Positions 861-13,671 of a stretch of DNA of 13,846 nt are shown here, in pieces; the stretch's first letter is position 1, and the number at the start of each line of letters is the position of its first letter. The translations under genes were made by a program, and so were the position numbers. A model generated the notes under the pieces. That model ran no database searches, was not told the origin of the DNA, and saw nothing but the letters and a program-made list of their open reading frames with translations. This DNA is from an uncultured Bacillota bacterium (lineage in GTDB: Bacteria > Bacillota_I > Bacilli_A > RFN20 > CAG-826), in NCBI GenBank assembly GCA_946612055.1, contig CAMOEH010000159.1:1-13846 (forward strand). Direction: 5' to 3'.

Positions 861-2498
861 ATGACAATCGGTGAAAAAATCGCCCACTTAAGGATTGCCA
901 ATAACATTTCTCAGGAAAAGCTTTCCGAATTATTGAAGGTTTCCCGTCAATCCGTTTCCAAGTGGGAAAGCGACGAATCCTTGCCCCAAATCGATAAGGT
1001 TTTGCAAATCTGCGATCTCTTCAAAATCACCGCGGATGAGCTTCTTCACGATAACGTTGTTATCCATCGCGGCAAAGCCTTACCCTTACGCTTAGAAGAA
1101 GGGGTGAAAACCAAATATTTCGGGACCGATGGCTTCCGTGGCGAAGTCAACAAAGTCCTAACCTGCGACCACGCTTATAAAATTGGAAGATTCTTGGGCT
1201 GGTTTTATGGCAACCCGAAATACAATCTCCAAAAGCCAGGATACCGTCCTCGTATCTTGATTGGAAAAGACACGAGACGTTCTTCTTATATGCTCGAATA
1301 TGCCGTTGCGGCGGGCATCGCTTCTAGCGGAGCCGATGTCTATTTGCTTCACGTCACGACCACGCCTAGTGTTTCTTATATCGTCAGGCAAGATTGCTTT
1401 GATTGCGGCGTGATGATCACCGCTAGCCATAATCCTTTTTACGATAATGGCATCAAGATCATTAATTACAATGGTGAGAAAATCGAAGATGCGGTGGCTG
1501 TCCTTATCGAAGCCTATCTTGATGGAGCTTTAGATAAATTAGGGATTAAAGAGAAAGATTTACCCTTCGCTAGTAGAGAAAAACTAGGGGCAATCTTTGA
1601 TTACGCTAGCGGTAGAAATCGTTACATCGGATATTTGATCTCTCTCGCCCGTTTCTCCCTAAAGGGATATCGCATCGGCTTAGATAGCGCTAATGGAGCA
1701 TCTTGGATGATTGCCAAATCCGTCTTTGATGCGGTAGGGGCTCAAACCTTTGTAATTAATAACGAGCCCAATGGTCTCAACATCAACGAGAATGCTGGAT
1801 CGACCCACATCGCTCCCTTTTGCCAATTCGTCAAAGACAACAAATTGGATATGGGCTTTGCTTTCGATGGCGATAGTGATCGTTGCATCGCTGTCGATGA
1901 AAATGGCAAAGAAGTTGATGGAGATAAGATCCTCTATCTTCTTGCCAATAAGCTTAAAGGCGAGAATTCGTTAGAAAACAATGCCGTCGTCGCGACCATC
2001 ATGTCCAATTCAGGACTTGAAAAAGCTTTGAAAGGCATTGGCGTGAAATTGATCCGCACGACCGTTGGGGATCGCTTCGTCTATGAGAAGATGCAACAGG
2101 ACAATTATTCTCTAGGAGGAGAGCAATCGGGCCATATCATCGTCAAGAAATATGCGACGACAGGAGACGGCATCCTCACGGCTTGGATGATTGCTGAAGA
2201 AGTGATTGGCAAGAAGACAACTTTGTCTAAGCTTGTTTCCCCAGTTCGTTCTCTTCCCCAAAAGACGAGGAACGTGAAGGTGACCAACAAATCCGCGGTC
2301 GTGGATGATTATGCCGTCAAAGCGCGGTTTGCCGAATTAAGCGAAGCCATGGGTGAAGATGGTCGCATCTTGCTTCGAGAAAGCGGAACCGAACCCGTTG
2401 TCCGCATCATGGTAGAGGCTCGTAATGAAGCAGAATGCGATGCCTATATCGAAAAGATGTATGCAACGATCAAGAAAAGAGGGTACGTGTGTGAATAA
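861..2498 (+). CDS. glmM: Phosphoglucosamine mutase with fused N-terminal XRE-type HTH domain
   Basis: A 545-aa protein, about 95 residues longer than the usual GlmM (about 450). Residues 1-65 form a Cro/C1 (XRE) helix-turn-helix: MTIGEKIAHLRIANNISQEK, then VSRQSVSKWES and the usual trailing DLFKITADELL. From about residue 85 it is a complete alpha-D-phosphohexomutase: GTDGFRG (88-94), catalytic Ser189 in TASHNP, metal-binding DGDSDR (336-341), sugar-binding GEQSGH (420-425) and phosphate-binding RESGTEP (506-512). GEQSGH together with VGDRFV points to GlmM rather than a phosphomannomutase. It should convert GlcN-6-P to GlcN-1-P for UDP-GlcNAc and peptidoglycan synthesis. ATG 861 is chosen because a perfect AAAGGAGGT ends 7 nt before it; an in-frame ATG at 810 has no such site. 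It overlaps the downstream acyltransferase by 8 nt. Catalytic residues all look intact; a regulatory role for the HTH is inferred. Confidence 0.93.
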   Translation: MTIGEKIAHLRIANNISQEKLSELLKVSRQSVSKWESDESLPQIDKVLQICDLFKITADELLHDNVVIHRGKALPLRLEEGVKTKYFGTDGFRGEVNKVLTCDHAYKIGRFLGWFYGNPKYNLQKPGYRPRILIGKDTRRSSYMLEYAVAAGIASSGADVYLLHVTTTPSVSYIVRQDCFDCGVMITASHNPFYDNGIKIINYNGEKIEDAVAVLIEAYLDGALDKLGIKEKDLPFASREKLGAIFDYASGRNRYIGYLISLARFSLKGYRIGLDSANGASWMIAKSVFDAVGAQTFVINNEPNGLNINENAGSTHIAPFCQFVKDNKLDMGFAFDGDSDRCIAVDENGKEVDGDKILYLLANKLKGENSLENNAVVATIMSNSGLEKALKGIGVKLIRTTVGDRFVYEKMQQDNYSLGGEQSGHIIVKKYATTGDGILTAWMIAEEVIGKKTTLSKLVSPVRSLPQKTRNVKVTNKSAVVDDYAVKARFAELSEAMGEDGRILLRESGTEPVVRIMVEARNEAECDAYIEKMYATIKKRGYVCE

Positions 2499-3156
2499 TT
2501 TACCAATCAAAACCTGCGAACTATATCGCTGCGACATCCCGTTCCTATTCCCTTATTTTGCCCAAGCTGAATATCCGTGGCTTCTTCTTCCTCGGATTGA
2601 AGAGATCGTGGAGAAAGCATTGTCGGAGCATTGGGAAGGATATAGCGAAATCTCTCCCGGCGTCTTAGTGGGACAAAACGTTAAGATTGCCCAAACGGCA
2701 ACAATCATTCCTCCCGTTATTATCATGAGTGGAACCGAGATTCGCCCAGGAGCCTATATCCGTGGCAAAGTCTTTATTGGCGAGAATTGCGTCATCGGGA
2801 ATTCTTCCGAACTCAAGAACTGCATCCTCCTTAATCACGTGCAGGTTCCTCATTATAACTATGTCGGCGATTCGATTTTGGGTAACCATGCCCATATGGG
2901 GGCTGGCTCGATTTGCTCCAATCTAAAAAGCGATAACCGTCCTGTTGTTATCCATGGGGAGAAAGATTATCCAACCTCTCTTCGAAAAGTCGGTGCCTTC
3001 TTAGGAGATGATGCAGACTTAGGGTGCCATTGCGTTTGCAATCCCGGGACGATCGTTGGAAAAAACACTTCCGTCTATCCCTTAACTAGCCTTCGTGGCG
3101 TCTATCCAGAAAATAGCATCGTCAAAAGCCAAAAAACCATCGTCAATCGAAAATGA
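2491..3156 (+). CDS. Left-handed beta-helix acyltransferase, GlmU C-terminal-domain-like
   Basis: A 221-aa protein with hexapeptide repeats from about residue 55 to the end (SPGVLVGQNVKI, GTEIRPGAYIRG, KVFIGENCVIGNSS), the signature of a left-handed parallel beta-helix transferase. VPHYNYVGDSILGNHAHMGAGS (about 119-140) closely parallels the GlmU acetyltransferase stretch HLxYxGDAxxGxxxNxGAG; His121 corresponds to the GlmU catalytic His. The N-terminal uridyltransferase domain of GlmU is absent; only about 50 residues precede the helix. With glmM directly upstream, N-acetylation of GlcN-1-P is the likely reaction, though other amino-sugar substrates are possible. The start is GTG 2491, with AGAGGG (2478-2483) 7 nt upstream, overlapping the end of glmM by 8 nt, so translation is probably coupled. 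An in-frame ATG at 2425 lies well inside glmM and is less likely. Confidence 0.82.
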   Translation: MNNLPIKTCELYRCDIPFLFPYFAQAEYPWLLLPRIEEIVEKALSEHWEGYSEISPGVLVGQNVKIAQTATIIPPVIIMSGTEIRPGAYIRGKVFIGENCVIGNSSELKNCILLNHVQVPHYNYVGDSILGNHAHMGAGSICSNLKSDNRPVVIHGEKDYPTSLRKVGAFLGDDADLGCHCVCNPGTIVGKNTSVYPLTSLRGVYPENSIVKSQKTIVNRK

Positions 3157-3200: not shown

Positions 3201-4823
3201 ATGAAATTTCGTGCCAAATTGTTTTTGACATTCGTAGCAGCCTTTGCTTCGATGTCCGCCGTTGCAACGGCTAGTTATCAATCCTCTTCTATCAAAGAAG
3301 AAAGCGTTGTCGCGGTCACCGATGCTTCGGTTTGGGATGGCCTTGATTATTCGACCTATGGGGCAGCCTTCCGCGCTTCTTTGGCGGCCAAAATCAAAGC
3401 AACCCGAAGGAAGACTTGCTCTTATGACGCGACCTTAGCAATTGGGCAAAACGCTGCTTCTTATCCAAAAGGATCGAATAGGTTTGTTCCTTTTTATCAC
3501 ACCACGGATACGGTGGTTTCTGGTGGATGCAATCGCGAACACGTCTGGCCTAATTCTCGTGGAGCAGGCAAATCTGGCCCAGGAGCAGATCCCCATATTA
3601 TTCGACCAACTTTGACAAGCGAAAATAGCGATCGCGGCAACTCTTTCTTTGGGACTACCGGTAACACATGGGATCCGGCTAGTTGCGGATTTGAAGGAGC
3701 TAGAGGAGAAGCGGCCCGTGTCATTCTTTATGCTGCGACAGCTTATTACGATACCTGCGGAACCGGCGGCTCGAGCAATGGCAATATTCCATTGAGCCTT
3801 TCCAATAATCCGGGCGACGCCAACAATAGTCATACAATGGGGAGGCTCGATACCCTCCTTGAATGGAATGCTACCTATCCGGTTACGGCGATGGAAATCC
3901 AAATCAACAATTATTTGGCCGATGCCGGATATGCGAGAAATCCTTTTGTCGATTATCCGGTTTTAGCCAATTACATTTGGGATAAAAACGGACTTAGGAA
4001 TTCTCCTTATCAAGATGGAGGCGAGAATATTCCTTCTTCGACCTCTTCTAACCCTTCCTCTAGCAGCGTTCCTGATGATGGGTCGGGATATCGATTGGTG
4101 AAGGACGTGAATGAATTAAATGCCGGAGACAAAGTCGTTATCGTTTCCGAAGACCCTGATGCCAGCGGATCTTATCTTGCCTTGACCTCTTCGGCAAAAT
4201 CGGATTCTCTTCCTTGGTATTTAATTGGTTGCCCGGCGACCTTTAATGGCGAGAAGCTAGAATATCTCGATGCGATGGCTTCTTGGACTGTCGGCAAAGA
4301 AAACGGGAAATATCAATTCAAATTAGGCTCGAAGAGTCTCTTCCATTATGTCGATAGCGAGAACCATTATTCGATTGGTGTTGGCTCTCCTGGAAGCGAT
4401 GGCTCGGTGAATTGGTCGATTCAAGATATGAATCCCTCTTCCGGGCTATGCCAACTTTATGGCGAGAAAGGCGTCTATCTGGAATATTACAAGAGCAGTT
4501 TCTGCGGCTATCGTTATAAGCCGAATATTGGGATTCGCTTCTTTGCTTATTCCGACGGAGAGGAAATCCCTTCTTCGAGCAGCTCGGAAATCCCAAGCAG
4601 TTCTTCGGAACCTTCGAGTTCGATTCCTTCCTCCGAAAGCAGTTCTACGACCGTTCCCTCTTCCTCTGAAAGCGGATCTTCCGTTGCCCCGTCCTCTTCT
4701 GAAGGAGGCTCTTCTAGACATAGAGGATGCCGTGGCGAAGTGATTTCGGGCTTGGTTGCTTCTTCGATCGCTATGGTTGGAGTCATCGGGGTCGCCTTAT
4801 ACCGTAGAAGGAGGCCAGAATGA
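3201..4823 (+). CDS. Secreted endonuclease I-like nuclease with C-terminal sorting-type tail
   Basis: A 540-aa exported protein. Residues 1-25 are a signal peptide (basic start, hydrophobic core, AxA-like end near ATAS). Residues 45-270 match the EndA/NucM endonuclease I family of His-Me (beta-beta-alpha metal) nucleases: NREHVWPNSRG (111-121, catalytic His114), ADPHIIRP (129-136) and N-S-D-R-G-N (142-147). A Ser-rich linker (279-290) leads to an unrecognised domain of about 155 residues (297-452) rich in beta-type sequence. A second Ser/Pro/Glu linker (455-505) precedes HRGCRGE (507-513, Cys510), one hydrophobic segment (514-534) and a terminal RRRR. This three-part tail resembles MYXO-CTERM/GlyGly-CTERM signals, suggesting membrane retention followed by processing or lipid attachment; that part is inference. 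Likely role: degradation of extracellular nucleic acid. Its stop overlaps the start of a 44-aa membrane protein. Confidence 0.85.
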   Translation: MKFRAKLFLTFVAAFASMSAVATASYQSSSIKEESVVAVTDASVWDGLDYSTYGAAFRASLAAKIKATRRKTCSYDATLAIGQNAASYPKGSNRFVPFYHTTDTVVSGGCNREHVWPNSRGAGKSGPGADPHIIRPTLTSENSDRGNSFFGTTGNTWDPASCGFEGARGEAARVILYAATAYYDTCGTGGSSNGNIPLSLSNNPGDANNSHTMGRLDTLLEWNATYPVTAMEIQINNYLADAGYARNPFVDYPVLANYIWDKNGLRNSPYQDGGENIPSSTSSNPSSSSVPDDGSGYRLVKDVNELNAGDKVVIVSEDPDASGSYLALTSSAKSDSLPWYLIGCPATFNGEKLEYLDAMASWTVGKENGKYQFKLGSKSLFHYVDSENHYSIGVGSPGSDGSVNWSIQDMNPSSGLCQLYGEKGVYLEYYKSSFCGYRYKPNIGIRFFAYSDGEEIPSSSSSEIPSSSSEPSSSIPSSESSSTTVPSSSESGSSVAPSSSEGGSSRHRGCRGEVISGLVASSIAMVGVIGVALYRRRRPE

Positions 4824-5003: not shown

Positions 5004-7091
5004 ATGCCTATTTCTAAGAAAACCAAAACCAACAAAAGGAAGACCGTTCGCGGGAGCACTTCCATGTCTGAGGCGATTCATCGCCTTCGCGTTGCGACAG
5101 CAATCATCATTTTGATCGAGTTGCTTATCGCTGCCGCGGCAATCACCCTCTATTTCTTCAATTGGCCTAGAGGAATGCAAGAATGGCTTAGCCCGAGAGT
5201 TTGGGCCATTGCTTCCGGCTCGGTTATCGTTATCGATGGCCTTTTCCTTTGGTTCAGCGAAGCTAGGATCTCGGCAATCCGTCAGAAAAACGATTTGGAT
5301 GCCGCGTCGATTTTAGGATCGGATGTCCAAGAAGCTTATAACTTCGGCCAAATCGGTCTCGTTGTCGTTGATGATAATGATTCCGTGGCTTGGGCCTCCC
5401 CCTTATTCAAAGATCGTCACATCGATTTGCTTGACCTCAACATCTTGGAATGGGAGCCTCGCCTTGCTGATTTAAAGACCGCTCCTACGGATATCTCGGT
5501 GAAAGTAGAAGTCAACGGACGCAACTATGAAGTCAAATATCTTTCCGATGCTCGTCTATATATCTTCAAAGACTGCACCGATTACGAATCGATCTTCTCT
5601 TATTCGAAAGAACAAGCGGTGGTCATCGGTATCATCTTGCTGGATAACTATTCCGATATCGCGGGTAAAACCGAAGACGATAACAACGACTTAGTCGCGA
5701 AAGTTCGCGCGGCAATTTTTGATTACGCCAAAGAGCATGGCGTCTTGCTCCGTCGTTTCCGTTCGGATTCCTATTTCGCGGTTTGCAATTTCGCGACCCT
5801 TGCTTCGATGGAAGAAGATCGCTTCAAAATCTTGGAAAACGTCCGTGCCTTAGGCAAAGGGCAAAATGTCATCCCAACCCTTTCGATTGGCTTTGCTCAC
5901 GATTTCCCTGATGTTGGCAAATTGAACGAAATGGCTTCTAACGCCATCGATATCGCGATGTCGCGTGGCGGTGACCAGGCGGTTGTCTCTTGCTATGGCA
6001 AGGACCTTACCTTCTATGGAGGAAGATCCGCGGCGATTGAAAATACGGGCCGCGTCCAATTCCGTTCGGTTGCCGACTCGATCATCAATATCATCAAAGA
6101 ATCTTCTAATGTCTTTGTCTCTGGTCATAAAGAAATGGATATGGACGCTTTAGGAGCTTGCTTAGGCGTGATGGCCATCTGCGAACATTACAAAGTCCCT
6201 TGCCAAATCATTTACGATCCCCGTAACACCGAAAAGAAGACTCGTCTAGCCTTGACCAATTCTTTCTCCAAGACCGAAATCGAAAAGATGACGATTTCTC
6301 CAAAAGATGCCGAAGAGAAGATTCGCCCGACGACGTTACTTGTTGTCGTTGATGTTTCTGTTCCAAATCTTGTCATGGGCGATGGGGCGTTAGAAAAATC
6401 TGCCAAGACGATTGTTATCGACCATCACCGTCGCGGCGAATCCTTCATCGATCACCCGGTTTTGCCTTATGTTGATCCTTCGGCAGCTTCGGCTTCCGAA
6501 ATCTTGGCTGAATTCATCCATTACGCGACCGCGAACCCGCGCATAGAGATTCGTCCAGAATATGCGACTTTGATGTTATCGGGTATGTTCTTAGATACCT
6601 CGTTCTTCAAATCCAAGAGCACTGGCATCCGTTCTTTCGAAGCCGCGGAAATCTTGAAAGAATTCGGCGCGGATAACTCCCGTGCGGATGATTTCCTCAA
6701 AGACGATTATGAAGAATACGCCTTGACGACGAAGATCATCTCGACGATGAAAACCCCATACACGGGCATTGTCTATTGCGTTTCCGATGAGCGCGATATC
6801 GTGGAGCGTTCCGCATTAAGCAAAGTCGGTAACCAAGTCATGCAATTAAAAGACGTGCAGGCTTGCTTCGTCATTGGAAAGACGCAGGCAAACGAAGTCC
6901 GTATCTCGGCTCGAAGCGATGGCAATAGCGTCAACGTCCAATTGCTTTGCGAGAAGATGGGTGGCGGTGGACATTTCTCTTCCGCGGCTTGCTCGTTCAC
7001 GGATATGACGGTATTTGCCGTTGAAAACAAATTGATCGATACGTTAGAAACCTATTTATCCGAAGCACGTAAAGAAGGAGGAAAGAATTAA
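5004..7091 (+). CDS. gdpP: Cyclic-di-AMP phosphodiesterase, GdpP family
   Basis: A 695-aa membrane protein with the full GdpP layout. Two TM helices (about 29-52 and 66-84) are followed by a PAS-like region (about 108-195), a degenerate GGDEF domain (about 205-335, with RSDSY at 253-257 in place of GGDEF), then DHH (HKEMDMD 375-381, DVSVP, DHH at 473-475) and DHHA1 with GGGGH (653-657). It should hydrolyse c-di-AMP to pApA at the inner face of the membrane and so affect osmotic and cell-wall homeostasis. Start choice is uncertain: ATG 5004 lacks a Shine-Dalgarno but sits 8 nt after TATAAT; ATG 5064 has GGGAG (5052-5056) 7 nt upstream and would remove 20 basic residues ahead of TM1. The neighbourhood gdpP-rplI-dnaB is the classic Firmicutes order. 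The stop overlaps rplI by 1 nt. Confidence 0.95.
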   Translation: MPISKKTKTNKRKTVRGSTSMSEAIHRLRVATAIIILIELLIAAAAITLYFFNWPRGMQEWLSPRVWAIASGSVIVIDGLFLWFSEARISAIRQKNDLDAASILGSDVQEAYNFGQIGLVVVDDNDSVAWASPLFKDRHIDLLDLNILEWEPRLADLKTAPTDISVKVEVNGRNYEVKYLSDARLYIFKDCTDYESIFSYSKEQAVVIGIILLDNYSDIAGKTEDDNNDLVAKVRAAIFDYAKEHGVLLRRFRSDSYFAVCNFATLASMEEDRFKILENVRALGKGQNVIPTLSIGFAHDFPDVGKLNEMASNAIDIAMSRGGDQAVVSCYGKDLTFYGGRSAAIENTGRVQFRSVADSIINIIKESSNVFVSGHKEMDMDALGACLGVMAICEHYKVPCQIIYDPRNTEKKTRLALTNSFSKTEIEKMTISPKDAEEKIRPTTLLVVVDVSVPNLVMGDGALEKSAKTIVIDHHRRGESFIDHPVLPYVDPSAASASEILAEFIHYATANPRIEIRPEYATLMLSGMFLDTSFFKSKSTGIRSFEAAEILKEFGADNSRADDFLKDDYEEYALTTKIISTMKTPYTGIVYCVSDERDIVERSALSKVGNQVMQLKDVQACFVIGKTQANEVRISARSDGNSVNVQLLCEKMGGGGHFSSAACSFTDMTVFAVENKLIDTLETYLSEARKEGGKN

Positions 7092-7552
7092 TGAAAGTCA
7101 TTTTGCTCTCCGATGTGAAAAAACTTGGGAAGAAAGGCGATACGGTCGTCGTAACTGATGGCTATGGCGCCAATTATTTGATTCCCCGCGGCTTGGCCGT
7201 GGCTTCGACTTCCTCCAGTCAGAAAGAGCTTGCTAGAAGCAATGCCGAAGAAGAAGCCAGGCAAAAAGAGCTTTTCCTAGAAGCAACCGCTTTAGCCAAA
7301 AGACTAGAAAACCTCAATGTCGAATTCAAAGCCAAAGCTGGCAATGACGGCAGGATGTTCGGGACCATTTCCCCCAAGGAAATCGAAGCCGAACTTTTAA
7401 AGCAATGGGGCATCAAAATCGACAAAAGGAAATTCGTCGATAAATATCCTTGCAATGCCTTTGGCTATACTCGGCTGAAGATCGAGCTTTATAAAGGCAG
7501 CGAAGGCAAAGTCATCGGCACGATCAACGTCCACATCGCCGAGGAGAAATAA
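7091..7552 (+). CDS. rplI: 50S ribosomal protein L9
   Basis: A 153-aa protein, normal length for bL9. It starts MKVILLSDVKKLGKKGDTVV and carries the L9 signature through GYGANYLIPRGLA (24-36), followed by the long connecting helix (about 41-75) and the C-terminal 23S rRNA-binding domain with GRMFGTIS (87-94). It binds 23S rRNA near the L1 stalk base and helps reading-frame maintenance. AAGGAGG (7075-7081) lies 9 nt before the ATG, and TAATG joins it to gdpP with a 1-nt overlap. It lies 2 nt upstream of dnaB in the same operon. Confidence 0.98.
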   Translation: MKVILLSDVKKLGKKGDTVVVTDGYGANYLIPRGLAVASTSSSQKELARSNAEEEARQKELFLEATALAKRLENLNVEFKAKAGNDGRMFGTISPKEIEAELLKQWGIKIDKRKFVDKYPCNAFGYTRLKIELYKGSEGKVIGTINVHIAEEK

Positions 7553-11509: not shown

Positions 11510-12601
11510 TTATTGTTGCGGGCGGAAGGCTTTCATCGATAGCCACATCACGCGCATGCCATAGAAGAAGACAAATAGGAATAAGGCGAATTGCTGGAGC
11601 AAGAAGCCAAGCAAGCAAAGCACGCCAGGGCTAAAGGCGGCCCAGCAAGCGATCTTCTGGCTTTGCCAATAGGTGATGACGCGGTAGGGGTTCCTTTTGC
11701 CGCGGGTCATCAAGAAGAGGACAAGCCCCATCAAAAGGACGAGGCCAACATAAACCCCAGCCATGATGCCAGCATATTGCCAAGCGGTTTTCTCTTTGGC
11801 GGGATTATAGGCTTCGTTAAGGACGTTTTTCCAAGTCGAGCGAATGGCGGAAGCATATTCTTCGATGTGATCTGCATCATCATAGGCAAGAGTTTGCTCT
11901 TCGCCATTTTTATCTTTGTAGACGTAGGTTTTGCCTTTGAGGTCCTTGCTCGTTAAGTCATAAAGATCGACGCCATTAAGGCGAGCATAACTGCCGATGA
12001 CAGATAAGGTAGCTGTTTTGGCGTTACGAGCGAATTTGAAGATATAGAGATTGCTTTGGCCAAGGACCATGGTGTTGGTGTGATAGGTGCCATCACCAGC
12101 GGTGCGTTTGGCATCGGTGAACGGGTTCTTATTGTCGATGACCTTATCGACGAAATCTTGATCTTTCAAACCGGTGGAATTGAAGAAGACTTCGAATTCC
12201 GCAATGCCAGTGACAGGGCTTTCATAAATGAACCAGGAATGATCCGTATCATGATTCATGGCATCCCAGTTCTCGACGACGGCTTTCCCATCTTCGAAAC
12301 GGACGTGGGCGTTTTTGACGACCAATTCTTTTTGGAAAGCAACCAAGCCTTCTTCGATGCCATAGGTGGCAGACCCTAGGAAGGAGTTACCCGCTTTCAC
12401 GTTCATCCTAGAAACAAAGCTAGGAACTAAAGCAATGATGACCGCGGCAACAGATAATCCAATCGGCCAATACCATTTCATTTCTCGTCCAGCACGGACG
12501 CAAGCGTCATTAGAAACCAAGGTCGAAAAGCCAAGACGAATCTTTGCTTTGGTTTCGGGATTTAGACGCGATTTCTTCTTCTTGTTATTCTTGTTCGACA
12601 T
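11510..12601 (-). CDS. Multi-pass membrane protein, DUF1189-like
   Basis: A 363-aa protein. A Lys-rich cytosolic start (MSNKNNKKKKSRLNPETKAK) leads to TM1 (about 44-64), a roughly 210-residue extracytoplasmic region (65-273), then TM2 (276-299), TM3 (318-336) and TM4 (337-357). The layout of one N-terminal helix, a soluble domain opening with an F-E-D-G-K-A strand, and a C-terminal helix cluster resembles DUF1189 proteins of Firmicutes, sometimes annotated near maltodextrin genes; this is only a resemblance of architecture and a few motifs. ATG 12601 is supported by AAAAGG (complement of 12608-12613) 6 nt upstream; a further in-frame start at 12673 is less likely. Function unknown. It is divergent from the next membrane protein gene. 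Confidence 0.75.
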   Translation of the reverse strand: MSNKNNKKKKSRLNPETKAKIRLGFSTLVSNDACVRAGREMKWYWPIGLSVAAVIIALVPSFVSRMNVKAGNSFLGSATYGIEEGLVAFQKELVVKNAHVRFEDGKAVVENWDAMNHDTDHSWFIYESPVTGIAEFEVFFNSTGLKDQDFVDKVIDNKNPFTDAKRTAGDGTYHTNTMVLGQSNLYIFKFARNAKTATLSVIGSYARLNGVDLYDLTSKDLKGKTYVYKDKNGEEQTLAYDDADHIEEYASAIRSTWKNVLNEAYNPAKEKTAWQYAGIMAGVYVGLVLLMGLVLFLMTRGKRNPYRVITYWQSQKIACWAAFSPGVLCLLGFLLQQFALFLFVFFYGMRVMWLSMKAFRPQQ

Positions 12602-12692
12602 AATAAACCTTTTGCAATAAGCAAAAATACGATACACGGATTTATCGCGTTTGAAAATCAAAAAGACAATCAAAGGGTGGGAAACAAATCGG

Positions 12693-12706: not shown

Positions 12707-13216
12707 ATGGGTAAGCAGAAGCGAGATAACCGTCCACGAAAATGGCCATCGATCCTTCTTGGCATCCTTTATTTGTCTTCGATTGGCATCTTCTTTTTGC
12801 CTCGTTTTGCTTTGCTAGATGGCGAGGCTTATTTATCGATCCCATCTTATTTGGCTTTCTTTGGAGGGGATTTAGGGGAAAGCATCGATGGCGTTTATTA
12901 TTCGTTGCACCTCAATTTCAATTATTTCGATTTGGTTTTTTTCTTGTTGATCTTGCAAGCTTCCTTCTCTTCCTTTTTAGGAAGGAACGATATGCATAAC
13001 CAAATCATCTCTTTGATCTTTGGCCTTTTTGGATTGGCCGTAGCGGTGGCTTCTCCTTTCTTCCTTTCAATTGTTAATGCGGGCATATCCTCAGATGGTT
13101 TGAATTTGGCTTATGGCTATTTTGCTCTCATTGGCTTGCTATCGTTATGTATCGCCGGAAGCGTGGTCATCTTGATCCAAAGTAGGATCTATTGGAAGAA
13201 ACGCTTAGCGTTATGA
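12707..13216 (+). CDS. Hypothetical four-TM membrane protein, 169 aa
   Basis: No family recognised. The product starts with a basic cytosolic stretch MGKQKRDNRPRKW, followed by four predicted helices at about 13-32, 72-91, 98-122 and 136-158, and ends in a basic IYWKKRLAL tail, so both ends are probably cytosolic. The outside loop between TM1 and TM2 (about 33-71) is aromatic and acidic. ATG 12707 lies 8 nt after a consensus -10 and has no RBS. The gene stands alone between a divergent membrane protein gene and the ssrA promoter; no terminator is visible before ssrA. Confidence 0.75.
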   Translation: MGKQKRDNRPRKWPSILLGILYLSSIGIFFLPRFALLDGEAYLSIPSYLAFFGGDLGESIDGVYYSLHLNFNYFDLVFFLLILQASFSSFLGRNDMHNQIISLIFGLFGLAVAVASPFFLSIVNAGISSDGLNLAYGYFALIGLLSLCIAGSVVILIQSRIYWKKRLAL

Positions 13217-13273: not shown

Positions 13274-13671
13274 GGGGCCGTACTGGTTTTGACGGGGGAA
13301 TGTTTTGCCTAGACTGCAGCGGGATGGCTACCCTAAATGCCAAAAAACAATAACTGACAACTCTGTCAAACCTTGGATGGTGGCTTCCAATCGCCCCGTC
13401 CTCGCTCGCGCCTAATTAGAGCACCCGACATAGGGTTCCGCGATTGCGGACGAGCTCGTCCTACTCCGCGTTCTCGCCTTGGCGGAAATAGGGCGTAAGA
13501 GAAGGCGATAAGCTCGAGCGTTGGCTGGCGTGTAGAGACGAAAACCTAACAGCCGAGTCCCGGAATGAACTCGCCTCCATCGACGTCTGGGACTTAAAGA
13601 TGGAGACTAAGCTGTAGATGTCTTTGTGAAAATTCCTTCGGACCCGAGTTCGATTCTCGGCGACTCCACCA
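13274..13671 (+). ncRNA. ssrA: Transfer-messenger RNA (tmRNA)
   Basis: About 398 nt. The 5' end GGGGCCGTACTGGTTTTGAC is a typical tmRNA start, and the 3' end has a T-arm (CCGAG, TTCGATT loop, CTCGG) followed by CGACTCC, A and an encoded CCA (to 13671). The acceptor stem pairs GGGGCCG with CGACTCC, with one C-A mismatch. Pseudoknot 1 is visible: GGG 13321-13323 with CCC 13331-13333, and TGGC 13325-13328 with GCCA 13339-13342. The tag frame ends at TAA 13413-13415, followed by TTAGAGC, a usual tmRNA context. With the resume codon set at GAC 13356, preceded by AATAACT, the tag is DNSVKPWMVASNRPVLARA. tmRNA with SmpB rescues stalled ribosomes and tags the nascent chain for proteolysis. smpB is not in the window. 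Confidence 0.95.

Follow-up and report, generated by a model that had tools for sequence, protein, structure and literature searches.

A helix-turn-helix domain fused to the phosphoglucosamine mutase GlmM: most likely an enzyme-regulator of amino-sugar synthesis

The 13,846-nucleotide stretch of DNA analysed here (the window) encodes, at positions 861–2498 of its + strand, a 545-residue protein in which an XRE-type helix-turn-helix (HTH) domain is joined to a complete phosphoglucosamine mutase, GlmM. The fusion is confirmed as real, with chance or sequencing error excluded. We conclude that HTH-GlmM is most likely a bifunctional enzyme-regulator of amino-sugar synthesis, where we infer from sequence that the protein binds DNA, that it senses a ligand and in which direction it regulates. 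It is probable, in our judgement, that this one protein does two jobs, acting as mutase and as the binder of a conserved dyad, site A, from which it would activate its own operon and glnA-glmS under the control of a ligand. This is also the parsimonious reading, because the HTH is intact, a site of its own precedes glmM, and the same site is found at glnA-glmS in genomes with the fusion and in none of the unfused relatives examined.

The reading frame is unbroken from the ATG at 861 through to the stop codon and is preceded by the Shine-Dalgarno sequence AAAGGAGGT (845–853, + strand). Three regions can be distinguished on the + strand: an XRE/Cro-C1 HTH domain, recognised from the Pfam family HTH_3 and from its fold in an AlphaFold2 model (residues 1–65, 861–1055); a linker with the lowest conservation and partly low model confidence (residues 66–84, 1056–1112); and the GlmM phosphoglucosamine mutase, identified by its family profile, its invariant motifs and a match of its model to solved structures (residues 85–545, 1113–2498). 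HTH_3 aligns with residues 8–61 (E 3e-12), all four of the four PGM/PMM domains of Pfam fall in residues 85–533, and the NCBIfam equivalog model for glmM, TIGR01455, covers residues 87–538 at 490.5 bits against a cut-off of 447.55. The ORF, Pfam and TIGR01455 thus bear out the first-pass annotation, which had described a single uninterrupted frame with an HTH (residues 1–65) and an apparently intact GlmM. The domain scan of the protein found HTH and PGM/PMM domains only, and neither an NMN adenylyltransferase nor a ribosylnicotinamide kinase domain.

Across an alignment of 61 proteins (47 fused and 14 unfused), the residues A188-S189-H190-N191, D336, G337, D338, D340 and R341, G419-H425, and R506, S508, G509 and T510 are invariant. 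We take these positions to be the catalytic loops, comprising the serine S189, the metal ligands D336, D338 and D340, the sugar-binding segment E421-H425 and the phosphate-binding segment R506-T510. By profile and motifs, the C-terminal part is a complete GlmM, and mutase activity is predicted on the same grounds. The AlphaFold2 model, built from the 61-sequence alignment, has a mean pLDDT of 89.9; the HTH part forms five helices with a mean pLDDT of 93, and pLDDT falls below 50 at linker residues 70–73. The GlmM of Firmicutes, which is encoded in a cdaA-cdaR-glmM operon, belongs to the same family and has the same fold, and the mutase part of the model fits the nearest solved structures, those of B. 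subtilis and B. anthracis GlmM, at 43–44% identity. A sequence search of the PDB gave 50 distinct matches at E ≤0.001, with GlmM structures on top and the best-aligned stretches lying within the mutase part. For the HTH, the closest solved fold is that of the P22 c2 repressor on synthetic operator DNA (rmsd 1.0), and the closest solved structure by sequence is a Listeria XRE regulator (E 1e-4). As judged from sequence and model, the N-terminal part is an XRE-type HTH with a conserved recognition helix.

Relatives were sampled around one genome, G001, whose protein (locus L001) is 74% identical to that of the window. The best 120 of 7,997 scored homologues, the window protein among them, all combine HTH and PGM domains, at identities of at least 73%, and 114 of these 120 are exactly 545 residues long. 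A match at E ≤1e-45 is present in 128 of the 196 genomes searched of G001's family and a full-length fusion in 58 of the 196 (59–77% identity); the full-length fused matches among those listed contain no internal stops. Three further family genomes (G399, G405 and G425) hold pieces cut by contig ends, with the HTH visible in G399 and G405. Most of the remaining family matches are GlmMs that start near query residue 80, and a few are partial or start at residues 50–66 across stop codons. In a search at class level the full-length fusion was found in 8 of 296 genomes, the closest unfused GlmMs being 54–57% identical. A maximum-likelihood tree of the GlmM part places all 47 sampled fused proteins in one clade (support 100/99), a group of uncultured gut bacteria. 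Conservation of the fusion across a clade, which the first-pass annotation had put forward as a question, is evident from both the family count and the tree. In nearly all fused genomes HTH-GlmM is the sole match at E ≤1e-45. One genome, G405, has its fused GlmM pieces on two contigs together with an unfused GlmM of 45% identity, and could be a mixed bin.

The branch next to the fused clade is the unfused GlmM of G228 (98/92), a long branch whose placement the program reports as unsure. In G228, as read by eye, glmM already clusters with a nagB-like and a GlmU-acetyltransferase-like gene, so the nagB-glmM-GlmU-like cluster may predate the fusion. Separate HTH and glmM genes in related genomes, also considered at the outset, were not seen beside glmM: the flanks (up to 1.5 kb) of 37 unfused loci contain no HTH-like neighbour of glmM at E ≤1. 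In the unfused locus L045 a small XRE-like ORF, noted by eye, lies behind glmM on the opposite strand, and not upstream.

Conservation within the fused clade extends to the HTH, with a mean pairwise identity over 47 fused proteins of 65%, between the values of the linker (52%) and of GlmM (75%). Ten residues, M1, K6, R11, Q18, R29, Q30, W35, E36, P42 and F54, are identical in all 47 (M1 thus in 100%), and both T2 and K34 are kept in 98%. The conservation of M1 and T2 speaks for use of the upstream start codon, where the first-pass annotation had named translation solely from an internal start as a refutation. From these conserved residues and the 65% identity we conclude that the HTH is maintained. 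It is very improbable that it is maintained as a protein-protein or localisation domain, for example one that alters the contact between GlmM and CdaA. GlmM does inhibit CdaA in B. subtilis, according to PMC8573169, and 57 of 59 fused genomes have a CdaA, though away from glmM, being on another contig or at a distance of more than 180 kb (G056, G407); the conserved residues, however, include those of the recognition helix, and DNA dyads co-occur with the fusion. HTH-GlmM differs from the Firmicutes GlmM in its extra HTH, in having no adjoining cdaA and in the nearby nagB.

The dyad that we propose as the binding site of the HTH-GlmM dimer, site A, is an 18-bp element of the form TGTAAA-N6-TTTACA, with TTAACA and TTGACA as variants of the right arm. 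In the window it reads TGTAAA-GAAAGG-TTTACA and lies at 765–782, upstream of glmM, where it is found both by matrix and by pattern. The core GTAAA-N6-TTTAC has a single match in the window and is present in 1 of 200 shuffles; with a matrix from relatives less than 80% identical the window site scores 20.8 bits, the maximum over 20 shuffles of the stretch being 1.3. Among 60 fused loci (59 genomes and the window) site A reaches at least 12 bits upstream of glmM in 51, counts that are not independent as the fused genomes are related. The shuffle maximum is 10.3, and that of 38 unfused upstream stretches, a weak control since many of them sit within operons, is 5.5. When each locus is scored with a matrix from loci less than 80% identical to it, the training sites having been located with the full matrix, 39 of the 60 score at least 12 bits and 48 at least 10. 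Among 20 shuffles for each locus, one or more attain 12 bits in 4 of the 60 loci and 10 bits in 9, and one of the 20 shuffles of L022 hit 19.7 bits.

The nine fused loci below 12 bits comprise the eight loci of the deepest fused branch and L020, in which the site is one base short. Most of the eight have GCAAC-type half-sites; for one of them, L101, the upstream DNA is just 32 nt long. Another genome, G024, has A-type sites upstream of glnA and a mixed site upstream of glmM. Half-sites of the GCAAC type also make up a second dyad, site B (GCAAC-N5-GTTGC and near forms), which lies within 60 nt of the glmM ATG in 27 of the 60 fused loci and in none of the 60 after one shuffle per locus. No B-type match is present in the other 33 fused loci, the window included. 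In the window the region that site B occupies in many relatives holds a perfect palindrome, GAAGCGCTTC, at 835–844 between the −10 element and the Shine-Dalgarno sequence; the window has no proper B site, and the palindrome is a putative counterpart of it. A full TGTAAA-type site occupies the B position in L078, and a near one does so in L072 and L081, which suggests that the same protein binds at A and B. A second matrix, meant for site B, picked up A sites at many loci, and the counts make no use of it.

A consensus scan predicts the glmM promoter of the window at 803–832 on the + strand, with TTGACC (803–808) and TATATT (827–832) separated by 18 nt; the match is 10/12, from a simple consensus finder with about one promoter-like match expected by chance in the scanned stretch. 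The centre of site A lies 56 bp from the centre of the predicted −10. Over 51 glmM loci this distance is 41–46 bp in 29, 52–57 bp in 13, 47–51 bp in one and another value in eight. Among 19 representatives less than 85% identical the corresponding numbers are 5, 8, 0 and 6, and in shuffled downstream DNA the proportions are 14% at 41–46 bp, 15% at 52–57, 12% at 47–51 and 59% at other distances. For 21 glnA sites the distance to the predicted −10 is 44–46 bp in 18 and 55–56 bp in three. Two site positions that differ by about one turn of the helix and lie upstream of the −35 are typical of activators. The position of site A relative to the predicted promoters fits such a role and suggests activation, and contact with polymerase is suggested because A lies upstream of the −35 and the spacing avoids 47–51 bp.

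A different reading of the same arrangement is a pure repressor: it would occupy A and B, which flank the promoter, as a loop or a roadblock, and GlcN-6-P would relieve it. Repression is common among XRE regulators, and the B-type matches in 27 loci do lie over the start region, but the lack of any such match in the other 33, together with a site A upstream of the −35 at a spacing that avoids 47–51 bp, makes this explanation doubtful. Activation by HTH-GlmM remains the reading that we prefer for site A. The first-pass annotation had pictured an enzyme-regulator that could sense amino-sugar phosphates and control its own operon or the divergent reductase gene. Control of its own operon is supported by comparative evidence, namely the clade-wide fusion, the conserved HTH and the dyads that track the fusion. 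Control of the reductase finds no support: the divergent neighbour varies between genomes, and it is from the glmM promoter that the site keeps a conserved spacing. Positions 625–653 do hold a weak promoter-like match that could serve the reductase.

An independent test of site A comes from glnA, to the upstream DNA of which we applied a matrix trained solely on glmM sites. A site of at least 15 bits is present in 21 of 27 fused genomes, in none of 20 unfused genomes and in none of 270 shuffles (Fisher p 2.4e-8 for fused against unfused, ignoring relatedness). Of the fused set, 26 were chosen for a glnA lying before glmS, and the remaining one is G006. The best unfused score is 11.7 bits, in G393, one of four unfused genomes (with G039, G309 and G029) in which glmS also lies behind glnA and in none of which a site is found. 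Six fused glnA genes have no scoring site; altered versions are visible in G007, G356 and G474, and none in G004, G396 and G006. Excluded from the count were the fused genomes G413 and G408 (no glnA before glmS), G437 (truncated) and G271 (no glnA found) and, on the unfused side, L177 (truncated) and L187 (a second copy in G228).

That the sites precede glnA, a classical target of nitrogen regulators, raises the question of whether a separate clade-specific regulator, of XRE or GlnR-like type, binds site A, leaving the HTH of GlmM as a passenger or with another role. GlnR/TnrA boxes resemble the dyad of site A and are 1 bp shorter, and ORFs other than the fusion gene match the HTH part in the four fused genomes looked at. 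Such a regulator is nevertheless unlikely to own the sites, which track the fusion and are absent before glnA in all 20 unfused relatives, including the four with glmS behind glnA. The fusion gene is, moreover, the commonest target in whole genomes, with 33 of 66 pattern matches, as expected under autoregulation by HTH-GlmM.

These matches come from a stricter whole-genome pattern, GTAAANNAAANTTDACA, with the reversed pattern as control. Across 59 fused genomes it has 66 matches, in 39 of the genomes, against 9 for the reversed pattern, and in 21 unfused genomes 4 against 5. By their coordinates, the fused matches beyond the 33 at glmM (one of which, in G453, sits 222 bp upstream) comprise 16 at glnA, one before nagB (G410), three at exopolysaccharide genes and 13 at other positions, of which 12 fall within ORFs. 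The exopolysaccharide sites precede a Wzz gene by ∼490 bp and a LoaP-like antiterminator gene by ∼265 bp in G003, and an initiating sugar transferase gene by ∼100 bp in G045. The LoaP-like ORF (locus L290, 1022–1815) scores 121.3 bits, just below the family cut-off of 125, and combines its A site with a leader of ∼265 nt. None of the four unfused matches lies before glmM, glnA, nagB or exopolysaccharide-type genes; three are inside ORFs and the fourth (G021) is in a 72-residue frame that lies, by eye, beside a tRNA-like gene.

A looser pattern, TGTAAANNNNNNTTDACA, gives 43 strand matches in 12 fused genomes, a number that proves little since the reversed control is nearly as high, at 33. More telling is where they fall, as its intergenic matches lie upstream of glmM, glnA and nagB, with one in G002 (L222) before another ORF. 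Where nagB and glmM are divergent, a site is found between the two genes in all seven such loci scanned. A further candidate target, GTAAATTAAAATTTACA, which recurs in seven genomes, was rejected as it encodes the first residues, MGKLKFT, of a conserved protein. In the seven fused genomes concerned (L295–L301) this start is encoded by one and the same 17-mer, most likely as coding sequence, a strict conservation that is odd.

The gene neighbourhood has an amino-sugar setting. The end of glmM is overlapped by a + strand gene at 2491–3156 for a left-handed β-helix protein, like the acetyltransferase half of the archaeal-type GlmU; TIGR03992 matches its residues 28–198 (E 5e-41) at 140.8 bits, below the cut-off of 292.1, and Hexapep is also found. 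Of the 59 fused genomes, 43 have nagB one gene behind glmM and 8 have it divergent from glmM; 5 carry it at another place, and the search found none in 3. A glmS above cut-off is present in 29 of the 59, and in G445 the gene appears as two contig-end pieces. No glnA was found at E 1e-60 in 9 of the 10 glmS-lacking fused genomes examined, and the two genes therefore seem to be lost together.

The glmS ribozyme (RF00234) was found neither in the window nor in any of the 59 fused genomes, compared with 12 of the 18 unfused genomes of the same search, run with stricter filters that can lose weak matches, and of the 11 closest unfused relatives by GlmM, 10 have it. With new sites before glnA-glmS, this distribution would suit a takeover in which HTH-GlmM replaced the ribozyme as the glucosamine phosphate sensor of the fused clade. 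We regard that takeover as distinctly unlikely, however, as its absence is nearly family-wide: all 40 additional unfused genomes examined from the family of G001 lack it too, which argues that its loss is older than, or unrelated to, the fusion, and among the unfused genomes tested in this family G422 alone carries it. G228 (L148), the unfused sister lineage, likewise has no glmS ribozyme; a different dyad, ACATATGTTAAAAAATAACATATGT, lies upstream of its glmS and is perhaps the site of another glmS regulator.

Several other features of the window deserve mention. Directly after the GlmU-like gene, positions 3201–4823 encode an Endonuclease I-like protein; its tail is serine-rich, and inspection by eye suggests a signal-like start and a C-terminal membrane anchor. 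The c-di-AMP phosphodiesterase gene gdpP adjoins rplI at 5004–7552, and the NCBIfam model for a GdpP-L9 fusion matches both, below cut-off; this places a gene of c-di-AMP breakdown near glmM in the window, with cdaA elsewhere in the fused relatives. Two ORFs at 11510–12673 (− strand) and 12707–13216 (+ strand) look by eye like membrane proteins and match no Pfam family. A tmRNA gene (RF00023, 123 bits) with the tag peptide APSSLAPN lies at 13274–13671.

The mechanism that we propose for HTH-GlmM is as follows. The GlmM part would serve as the phosphoglucosamine mutase of the cell, and its dimer would pair the XRE domains for binding to TGTAAA-N6-TTTACA, or to sites with the variant half-site GCAAC. 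Bound next to the −35 on its upstream side, at its own operon and at glnA-glmS where this is present, the protein would activate these promoters, most likely through touching RNA polymerase, and at higher levels of bound protein the site B that about half of the loci have over their start region could bring repression. Through the linker, the HTH would receive a signal of amino-sugar supply from the state of the active site, be it GlcN-6-P, GlcN-1-P or the phosphorylated serine. The fusion and its clade, the conservation of HTH and enzyme, and the sites with their targets and positions are observed; we infer three elements of this scheme, namely that the HTH owns the sites, that binding activates and that a ligand controls it.

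In model bacteria the supply of amino sugars is controlled by a ribozyme, by small RNAs or by dedicated repressors; in Bacilli, the glmS ribozyme, an RNA, or NagR/YvoA, a GntR-type repressor, controls amino-sugar genes by supply. HTH-GlmM would differ from these in making the mutase itself the controller, in place of RNA or a GntR-type repressor. PutA and BirA also unite an enzyme and a DNA-binding regulator in one chain, with different enzymes, DNA-binding folds and signals. The NadR protein, as presented in PMC12421817, has an N-terminal HTH on active enzyme domains and represses genes of its own pathway, and its trifunctional form (HTH, NMN adenylyltransferase and ribosylnicotinamide kinase) is confined to Enterobacterales. 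The logic is the same as that proposed for HTH-GlmM, with another enzyme, pathway and lineage; NadR is a repressor, whereas the position of the HTH-GlmM site suggests activation.

A further parallel is offered by the engineered BzdR-like chimera Q1, in which an XRE-type HTH is joined to shikimate kinase. PMC3602430 reports that Q1 keeps both enzyme activity and DNA binding, that its linker is required for the response in vitro, and that working enzyme activity prevented induction by substrate in vivo. Natural BzdR has lost its kinase activity. BzdR/Q1 and HTH-GlmM share the order of HTH, linker and enzyme-derived part, and HTH-GlmM looks like a natural version of Q1 because its catalytic residues are kept and it is nearly always the sole GlmM match. 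The block of induction by working Q1 enzyme disfavours easy sensing by a catalytic domain.

Among the papers listed by full-text searches of the open-licence PMC literature, none describes an HTH-GlmM fusion or its regulon, as judged by title and start of abstract. The prediction is concrete, being one 18-bp site and two main operons. We rate as evenly balanced the wider proposal that, throughout the clade, a cell-wall enzyme activates the pathway that feeds it, from glnA through glmS to glmM, and in some genomes nagB and exopolysaccharide genes, as a natural, still catalytic intermediate between enzyme and transcription factor. If true, amino-sugar supply would here be controlled in a new way, by a mutase that senses its own pathway and promotes the synthesis of glutamine and glucosamine, and the clade would provide a natural test of the idea that enzymes turn into regulators by gaining a DNA-binding domain.
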